Positions 58,601 to 63,323 of a stretch of DNA of 64,000 nucleotides are shown here, piece by piece. Made by a program: the position numbers and the translations under genes. Location of the stretch: contig NC_134025.1 in NCBI RefSeq assembly GCF_964204645.1, forward strand, positions 3,415,001-3,479,000, given 5' to 3'. Positions within the stretch are counted from its first letter, which is position 1. The number at the start of each line of letters is the position of its first letter. Origin of the DNA: Tubulanus polymorphus. Taxonomy: Eukaryota; Nemertea; Palaeonemertea; Tubulaniformes; Tubulanidae. Under the pieces are notes generated by a model. That model was not told where the DNA came from, ran no database searches, and was given only the letters and a program-made list of their open reading frames with translations.

Positions 58601-61600
58601 ACATCAAATTCTACCGATTCTCAACGCAGAAATGTTTCATGATTTGTCTCGTACCTTATCGGGGTCTTTCGGGTCCTGCCAAGCGACGTTAAACAAGTGT
58701 TTAACCTCTTCGGCTAAACCAATTCTTGCTCCACTGTTTGCTGCCAGGTATATCCTCGGTAATCCTTCACTTCTTGCTAATTCTGATGCTTTCTAAAATT
58801 CATAAGACACTCAAATGAGAAATTTATTTACAGTATATAAAACAATTCATGAAGCAGAAAACCTACCAAATATAACTGATCTTCCTGAGGACCGAATGAG
58901 CCAATTTGGTTTGTTATATCATTAGCGATGACGATTAAGTTTCTTCCATCTGGATATTCTGGTGTTTTCAAATTCATTCTCCAAGCAACCATCGCAATCT
59001 GGAAATTGAAAATACTTTCCGATTGGCAACTGATCGTTATTCTAACTAACAGCAGATTACAATCAATCAGGATCTACCTCGTTTTCTCCACTGAGTCGTT
59101 TGATTTCACAAAGTTGATCCTGACTATCTAGAACTAGTTCAACGTATGTTAGTAATTCACTCGGTTCATCGTCAGTTAGCCCTCGCTCTTCATGATACTC
59201 TTTCCATAATCTCGATACAGACTGAAAATTCACATTCAAATATTATCAGAGGATAGAGAAAGCAGTTTATAGATAAATGAAACATCTTTATTACCTGTCT
59301 GAACATTTCGGGGAAATCATATACATATGTAGTGCCCATATGTTGGGCTTGGAAACGTTTTTGTTGAAGATGATCTTTCGTCATATACGGAGTACTCAAT
59401 AGAAGTCCATGTAGAGGACCCTGTTTAGTACCATAAGCTTGGAACATTATCTGAAATCAAAATCGATCGATTCATCGTTTGTTTAAATAAAAGACCAAGA
59501 AAAAGTTTGAATCTATCTAGTAGGGAGCTTACCTGTCCAGTTCGTGGTTCAGTCACTTCTTTATACATGCTAATATCGAGATAGTAACCACTTTCATTCG
59601 TCAAGAACAGTCGTATTGGAATACGATTTCCATTTGCCGATAATCTACAAACATCAAATGCAGTTGTAGCAATTTAATGATGAGTAACAATGCACAAAAT
59701 ATTAAATCCAGCAAAATCAGTTTTTTGTCTTGATTAATAATCACCTGATAGTCAGTTTCAATTCAGCCTGTAAAACTCGCAATTTCCACAACCGACTACC
59801 ATATCTCATGACCATGCTACGGACAGTCTCTTCCAACTAAAATTTAAAATCATTACAATAATATTAGAACATGTATATTTCAACCAATTGCAGTGAACAA
59901 TTAATGCTTATTCATATATGGAAACTTAATGACTTTTATTTCTTAAAGAATATAATCTGATGAAGCGATTTTTTTCCATTAGCAGATAGGAATTATTAGT
60001 TTTAGCGATATGCAGATTAATTGTTAATGTCTAATGCATTCTATGATTATGCAAAAAATTTCAAACGTGAAATATAACATAAATAGACAAGACACAAATA
60101 AATATCAGAATCAGGCATTCATTCCATGCAAACACATAACAAATGTTGCATACATTTTAATCTAGAAACTTGTGTAGATAAATCGGATTTGAAATATACG
60201 GTCCAAAATCTTTGATTCTATGACAAAAATGAACAAAGACCACCTCATGCATGTAATATTCTGAAGTGCAATGAGGAGATAATATTGAAAATGACAACAT
60301 TCTCTTGTGGAAATACACAATATTTTAAGATTGTAAGAGTTTGTACCTTTGCTGGGTCCAATAGAGATAGTGTAGGGAAAAAATTGAGAAATATGTGGTT
60401 GCAATCGGTGCACTTTGACTGAAACATCAAAAATCAACATCATCAATGATGGCAGTCTATAAGGCTTATTATCTAGTGCTGTTAGTTGAAGTGGAGAATA
60501 ATCTGACATGCTTATCATTATATCTAAAAGCAAAGAGAGAGTTCATACTCTCTAAAGAAATAATGAGAAGCTCGTCATTAAACCCTATACCGAAATCAAG
60601 TCAGTTCCATATGCATTTGGTAGTTTTTTTCAAGATAGAATATTAATGATGATACAAAATCTACTTCTGAACATAAGCAATCTTGTACATTATTGTTTGA
60701 AATGCGTTTTGGGAATTAGCCGCTTACTACTGAACACTGGTAGCTGGAACTGATTTGATTAGAAGAAATACAGACGTACATGCATATCTCTCATCCCTTT
60801 CACACCCTCATCATACGTTTACATGTATCTACTACAAAGCAATGCGCAAAATTCCCTTATATAACAAGGAACCATCCAGAATCGTACGTAATTCTCAGAT
60901 AATTCAGGTAAAGTTCAAAATAAATAAAGTACTATATGATAACAAACCCGCTTAATTCGTCATTCGAAGAAAATTCTGAATGGTTGCCCAATAAGGAAAT
61001 CTACAACTTGCACATGCTTTATTTGAGTACTGCCTAAGTGCAGCAAACCTTTGTCGGGTCCATGTTGACAGTAGGAAGAAAGTTGAGGAAAAAATGGTTG
61101 CAGTCGGATCGTCGAGACTGAAACAAAAACACCTTCATATAATGATAATAATTTCCTAAACATGCTACATTATACATCAACAAACTGAAGACTACCAAAA
61201 CATTCGTTAACATTCCGGTTTGAAAGACAGTATTTTCGATACTAAAAAAAGATCACGACTAAAAATCATTCAACGATCCACGCCTATAAACTATTGTGCT
61301 CAAAAAGAAGAACAATTCATCGAGGCCGACGAAATGTTGACACAAGAAACTTATTGAAATAATTATGATACATGTAGTCCAGCTGTCAACATGTTCAATT
61401 AAGCAAAGCTGCACTAAAAACCTTTTTACATTGTACAATATCAAAATGGCAAACCCTAAAATGAATATTAAAAATCTATTACGTTCATTGAAAAACATTC
61501 AGACATCATCATATATTTTACCATAGCTTAAGGCTTAAACATGCTAGAACTTCAATAATCTTATTCAATTGTTTTCAGATATTTTATTGCATCTTCGAAT

Positions 61601-63323
61601 TCAAATATTTTTCATGGGGTAAATAGAAGTTCTCTACAAACCATTGGGTGTGAAAATGCTACTTCAAATGCATCCATAGCTTCTAAAAGAGTCCTTTCTC
61701 CTTCATTCTGAAGGTATTCAAATGATGCCTCCTAGAAAAACAATATTCACCAGATATGGAGTTATGAGATATGGAGTTTGTTTGTCAAGTACAAAGACTT
61801 AAAGTAAATACTGTATAGGTTCACTGACCTTTGTGACAAGATCTGAATGTCTAATGATCGACCTCACAAAGAATCTGTAATCAGTGACTTCACAACCAGC
61901 AGCCACCTGAAAATATCCCGAATTGAACAGTTTATGGTATATTTAATCAAATATGCAAATGGAGGGGTGGATTTAGGGGTTGATTTCAGGGATCAGGATT
62001 TTGAACAATCATTAAAAGTGCTTACTTTAGCTTTGCCTAAGTATAAATGCATTCGATGATTGGCGAATGGAATGGCTTCCAATTCAAAGTTTCTCATTCT
62101 GTTGATTTCAAGCTGGAAGGCCAGAGCTGGCTCTAGATGTCGGTAAATACGATCTTCACAGAACTATAATACATAATGACCACAGAAGATATATACCTGG
62201 TAAAACGAAATATGATATTCTGTGGAGGTAGAATTAGTAAAATGCCGCAAATATTCAGTAGAATGTCAAACCCACAATAAATACAAAAGACATAAAACTG
62301 CGAAAGATTTATTTGAAACTCAGTCATTATCTAAAAACCATTATAAAGGAATCATAAGAGCAGTGAAACTTACATTATCTCTGGCTCTGAAAGTGAAGTA
62401 TTTCGGGAACTCTCTCTGAAAATCATGAATTACACATGTATTTCCATTACAGCAAAAACAAAAAGAAATTTCAAAATGCAATGATGAATATGAGAGTTAA
62501 AGATAATTTACCTCAACCAGTAGCAGAAACGTTACTCTACGTATTCCCTTCTTTTGCATGGTCTCTCGCTGTAATCATCAATACAAAATATCATTACAGT
62601 TTGATTGAAAACTATATTGCGCAAATAAAAGGAAAAATACGTGTACATACCTTAGCTGCGCAGAATTCTTCAAATAATTTCACATATCCATCATCATCTC
62701 TTTCACCATTGACTTTCATTAGAGCTACATTCAGAATATGAATAGGTTCTTCGACCTTTGAATCCTGAAATGAATGATATTTGTACGGTTTTTTCTTTCG
62801 ACTTATTTCATCACAGAGACACTCGTGATGTATATAACTGGTTTACCTCCGTAGAACTGTGTCCACTACCCGTACTAAAACTGATCGGTCCAAAATCAAC
62901 AGTAGTACCAGGACTGGGTGGTGGGCTGCACGAAAATCGATCCATGACGATATCAAAATGCCTAAAACATATCACAAACACAATAAATTCATGGTTGCAA
63001 ATAGTTGAGACTATTTCCAGTCTTGATGAATATCGTTGAGAAAAACCCACAATTTAGTTTTCAAAAGCAACATGAAGAAAACTTACTCGACAAACTTAGA
63101 AAATGAGGTGAATGCAGCCATTGCTCCTCTCCTCTGACACGGAGGAAAAGCTTTTTCCGCGATAGCACTTGATTGGTTGAATGTATCGAGGTCATCACTA
63201 AGACTGCTGACTCTTCCTAATTGACTAAAACTTGACTCGCGTCTTTGCATCAACCTAGCAAAATTCAATTGTCCAATGTCCATTTTCTCAGGTGATATAT
63301 CCAGTGGTTCGCATGGTCGAGTC
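55615..63323 (-). CDS. ACACA: Acetyl-CoA carboxylase, central and carboxyltransferase part (5' incomplete)
   Basis: Makes malonyl-CoA for fatty acid synthesis. Exons: 63323-63087, 62961-62847, 62764-62651, 62568-62512, 62415-62374, 62163-62026, 61906-61829, 61731-61642, alternative 61117-61049 or 60418-60347, 59836-59745, 59644-59533, 59450-59295, 59221-59078, 58998-58867, 58792-58655, 58575-58357, 58242-58132, 58053-57910, 57827-57707, 57614-57421, 57230-56917, 56839-56572, 56489-56319, 55970-55837, 55744-55615. The carboxyltransferase part has [53 protein letters not shown] and [16 protein letters not shown]. The C-terminus is [18 protein letters not shown]. The central region carries a basic QRRESSF motif that could be phosphorylated. 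Biotin carboxylase and biotinyl domains must lie beyond 64000 on this strand. The gene could equally be called ACC, since many invertebrates have one copy. Confidence 0.95.
60347..60418 (-). CDS. ACACA: ACC alternative exon, version B (24 codons)
   Basis: 72-base exon with TTTCAG acceptor and GTACAA donor, phase 0 at both ends. It encodes [16 protein letters not shown] then LSLLDPAK. It is homologous to the exon at 61049-61117 and lies between the same flanking exons. It is one codon longer at the NF-PT-DP loop. Confidence 0.88.
61049..61117 (-). CDS. ACACA: ACC alternative exon, version A (23 codons)
   Basis: 69-base exon with TTTCAG acceptor and GTTTGC donor, phase 0 at both ends. It encodes [16 protein letters not shown] then VNMDPTK, the length of the vertebrate segment ([12 protein letters not shown] then VIMDPSK). 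About 630 bases of intron separate it from version B. Confidence 0.88.

Follow-up and report, generated by a model that had tools for sequence, protein, structure and literature searches.

Two homologous tandem exons, probably used as mutually exclusive alternatives, in the acetyl-CoA carboxylase gene of Tubulanus polymorphus

A duplicated exon in the acetyl-CoA carboxylase gene

The acetyl-CoA carboxylase (ACC) gene of the nemertean Tubulanus polymorphus carries two versions of one short internal exon. Read from the DNA, these versions, A and B, are real homologous exons that are both under protein-level constraint, and the best reading of their arrangement is that they are probably used in a mutually exclusive manner. 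Positions given without a contig handle are those of the window, the whole 64,000-nucleotide stretch that was analyzed.

A common upstream exon (61642..61731; EASFEYLQ...FSHPM) and a common downstream exon (59745..59836), both in the ACC reading frame, enclose exon A (61049..61117; 69 bases, 23 codons) and exon B (60347..60418; 72 bases, 24 codons). All four lie on the minus strand. The introns of the cluster measure 524, 630 and 510 bases, and all three have GT-AG borders. A TTTCAG acceptor precedes both A and B, and AAAG/GT closes both. Because the upstream exon closes with a complete codon (HPM), at the weak donor ATG/GTTTGT, the borders of the cluster are phase 0. A and B share this phase, and either one alone keeps the frame. 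Direct reading of the sequence confirms the preliminary description of tandem homologous exons of 69 and 72 bases between the same flanking exons. Its phase 0 borders and intact frames also hold, and either isoform aligns with human ACC1 throughout the test segment.

Separate open frames of the gene region match the BC, BCCP, ACC_central and carboxyltransferase parts of the enzyme (PF00289, PF02786, PF00364, PF08326 and PF01039). Read from individual open frames, the locus has the family parts expected of a complete eukaryotic multidomain ACC. In a genome search, ACC_central matches occur at this locus only, and the animal appears to have a single ACC gene. Two other PF01039 carboxyltransferase loci, on contigs C12 and C2, presumably encode the PCC and MCC beta subunits. 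A genome search with the spliced segment matched the exons of this gene alone, so there is no intronless ACC copy that records a splice form.

Upstream of the window, the ACC gene region has tandem copies of a ~268-base unit that contains an HPSI-coding microsatellite (about C1:3485077-3486159). A piece of this repeat, NLFRQVDMFVA, recurs in the frame of a genuine ACC exon, and the array may partly repeat exon as well as intron sequence.

Elsewhere in the genome, some ten Hox genes form an ordered cluster on one strand over ~320 kb (C6:5318228-5634756). Two Hox genes on C6 have an IKELN extension after the homeodomain. We take this extension to be the Lox2/Lox4 signature of spiralians, which would place the animal in Spiralia with an intact Hox cluster.

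Homology and protein-level constraint

The duplication is detectable without reference to protein, as a block of 55 bases with 73% identity and a spacing of 699 that includes the acceptor TGTTTCAGTC. When the 540 minus-strand open frames in the 34 kb around the gene were compared all against all, A and B matched with E = 8e-9. This comparison revealed no second duplicated exon in the ACC gene; the remaining matches were intronic repeats, overlapping frames and one weak unrelated match.

Over 23 aligned codons, A and B share 14 residues and differ at 25 of 69 bases (64% base identity). The changes fall mostly in third codon positions (9, 3 and 13 at positions 1, 2 and 3, respectively), with P = 0.004 for the shortage at second positions. 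In a neutral simulation that placed 25 changes randomly on A, a mean of 8.3 residues remained identical, and 14 was reached in ~0.05% of trials (P = 4.6e-4). Retention of 14 of 23 residues despite this many base changes is rare under neutrality and points to constraint at the protein level for much of the separate history of the two copies.

Compared with human ACC1, A and B each retain 15 of 20 core residues, though not the same set. B is identical to the human protein over a 10-residue stretch. A retains PTV and MDP as in human ACC1, where B has PTL and LDP. The whole test segment of 84-85 residues aligns to human ACC1 with an E value of 4e-37 when it contains A and 3e-35 when it contains B. 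Family scores are 171 bits with A versus 166 bits with B, which is slightly weaker.

Splice sites and candidate regulators

Both exons have usable GT-AG splice sites. The earlier view that these sites are good holds for the acceptors but not for the donors, which are present but weak. Scored with an approximate vertebrate consensus matrix, the donors of the upstream exon (GTTTGT), A (GTTTGC) and B (GTACAA) reach -1.4, 0.2 and -1.1 bits, and five neighboring donors range from 2.1 to 8.2 bits. Of the eight donors examined, these three score lowest. Weak donors are common among regulated exons, and their presence here would leave room for regulators. An alternative upstream donor four bases further on (GTAGAG) was rejected, with a score of -6.9 bits and a broken frame.

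The sense (minus) strand carries three UGCAUG motifs around B that are candidate sites for Fox-type proteins by motif match. One lies before B in the A-B intron (60779..60784) and two lie after it, ~96 bases (60246..60251) and ~217 bases (60125..60130) past the exon, compared with expectations of 0.15 before and 0.12 after. Since ten motifs were examined, this enrichment is a lead only. Action of a Fox-type regulator through these motifs is, on this evidence, a weak lead.

Probable mutually exclusive use and its alternatives

Several devices can force a choice between neighboring exons, and none of those sought was found in this cluster: a short intron, a frame break, a mix of U12 and U2 introns, RNA pairing or a distant branch point. 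The A-B intron, at 630 bases, is long enough to splice, which rules out steric exclusion. A and B total 141 bases, and joining both preserves the frame, so a transcript with both would escape nonsense-mediated decay. Every intron of the cluster is GT-AG, with no U12/U2 mix. Intron-intron pairing energies are not clearly above those of shuffled introns (3 of 60 shuffles were as good as the best pair, and 19 of 60 for the others). Competing RNA structures were rejected, with pairing near or within the shuffled range and the best inverted repeats short and AT-rich. A distant branch point like that of OGDH was also rejected, given AG dinucleotides at -40, -48 and -56 before exon B. With intron length, frame, intron type and pairing all negative, there is no built-in reason for exclusivity among the devices considered. 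An enforcing device is not required, however, as many mutually exclusive clusters depend on regulatory proteins. Moreover, where duplicated tandem exons encode part of the core of a globular fold, exclusive choice is what usually results.

These observations bear on three other explanations. One copy, most likely B, might be a formerly functional relic that now enters transcripts seldom, if at all. The weak donor of B, its one-residue insertion and its slightly lower family score all fit such decay. Yet its frame is open and its acceptor, donor and phase are intact after divergence to 64% base identity, the substitution pattern indicates protein-level constraint, and the donors of A and the upstream exon are likewise weak. 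We consider loss of function in one copy unlikely. Joining of A and B in sequence, always or often, to give a protein with a doubled segment is more doubtful still. Nothing in the frame, the phase 0 borders or the ordinary-length intron would prevent it, and no other preventing device was found. Such a protein, however, would have a second copy of the predicted central beta strand of CDC2, and alignment with ACC sequences of solved structure from human and fungi leaves room for only one copy of the segment.

It is barely conceivable that the second exon reflects chance similarity or an assembly artefact, an explanation with nothing to recommend it beyond the shortness of the segment. Among the open frames around the gene, the A-B match stands out (E = 8e-9), and the position, order, frame and acceptor are all correct. 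At 64% identity the copies are also too diverged to be a misassembled recent repeat. Mutually exclusive use of A and B remains the probable reading.

Position in the enzyme and proposed mechanism

Alignment places the exons at residues 1465-1487 of human ACC1 (numbering of the 2346-residue chain). The preliminary description assigned them to a carboxyltransferase-entry segment, which is inexact: they fall in CDC2, some 85-90 residues ahead of the carboxyltransferase domain. According to the crystal structure, the CDC2 sheet has six strands, long helices separate strands 3 and 4 and strands 4 and 5, and ACC has a major hinge where CDC2 meets CT (PMC4833862). The order found here is a helix (EASFEYLQ...), the A/B exon, a second helix (LEETVRSMV...) and a strand (LQAELKLTI). 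This order fits the CDC2 description if the A/B exon supplies strand 4 and the following loop. We infer that the alternative segment is the fourth strand and next loop of CDC2, within the non-catalytic central domain, and the extra residue of B falls within the loop after the putative strand.

The pair could go back to a 69-72 base exon that was duplicated in tandem long ago in a single ACC gene, with both copies retained as alternatives. The spliceosome would join the upstream exon to one of the two, A or B, before adding the shared downstream exon, such that each transcript carries exactly one of them. The products would be two full-length ACC enzymes that differ in a 23- or 24-residue piece alone. 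The low-scoring donors of the upstream exon, A and B may leave this decision to regulators, and a Fox-type protein that binds the UGCAUG motifs flanking B is perhaps one of them. The swap might subtly change CDC2, and because the CDC2-CT hinge helps set the shape of ACC, perhaps also activity. That a regulated, exclusive swap in CDC2 yields two kinetically or structurally distinct ACCs from one gene, chosen by tissue or metabolic state, is a tentative proposal. An effect of the swap on ACC polymerization is speculation.

By producing malonyl-CoA, ACC carries out the committed step of fatty acid synthesis and restrains the burning of fat. In vertebrates, two genes share this job. If both exons are used in T. 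polymorphus, they would add an extra layer of ACC control in the central domain, a region of largely unknown function. The natural pair would also be a ready-made probe of how CDC2 influences ACC shape and activity.

Comparison with known systems

The preliminary description knew of no such exon pair in animal ACC, and our survey agrees. No account of this kind of pair, whether as mutually exclusive, duplicated or alternative exons of ACC, was found in the accessible, largely openly available literature. Nor did such a pair come to light in studies of ACACA splicing in cattle and ducks. A case that is annotated elsewhere but unpublished may exist.

Vertebrates obtain more than one form of ACC from the ACC1/ACC2 gene pair and from a small skipped exon of ACC1 near a regulatory serine. 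These routes use two genes or exon skipping; neither exchanges one homologous exon for another in CDC2. In T. polymorphus, splicing of one gene may achieve an effect similar to that of the separate ACC1 and ACC2 genes.

Swaps that tune central metabolic enzymes are known from exons 4a/4b of vertebrate OGDH and exons 9/10 of PKM (PMC7969005, PMC3498831). Exclusivity in these genes is achieved by known devices, such as the distant branch points of OGDH; the AG dinucleotides 40, 48 and 56 bases before ACC exon B argue against that device here.

The closest parallels come from invertebrates. Exons 6a and 6e of coq-2, found in nematodes, flatworms, annelids and molluscs, are used exclusively and change the product, as proven by RNA-seq and gene editing (PMC7434440). 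Like ACC A and B, they are homologous exons that lie in tandem within one gene for a metabolic enzyme, and they occur in overlapping animal groups. The gene is different, and the use of one exon per transcript is proven for coq-2 and probable for the ACC pair. When a COQ2-like locus on contig C4 was inspected as a control for the a/e exon pair, only intronic repeats were seen. Near this gene is a short tandem repeat array (L021:1848-2738) that translates as repeated GEYSVI(D/N)S and is probably a minisatellite within an intron.

The oyster alternative oxidase gene carries exon 10 duplicates that form a proven pair with a stress response (PMC5589949). Here too an exon is duplicated in tandem in a spiralian enzyme gene, and one copy is the more conserved and the other the more divergent. 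The oyster exons are terminal, differ at ~170 bases and have a shown stress response; the ACC exons are short and internal. As mutually exclusive exons, the ACC pair would join a well-known class, in a gene for which it appears to be undescribed.
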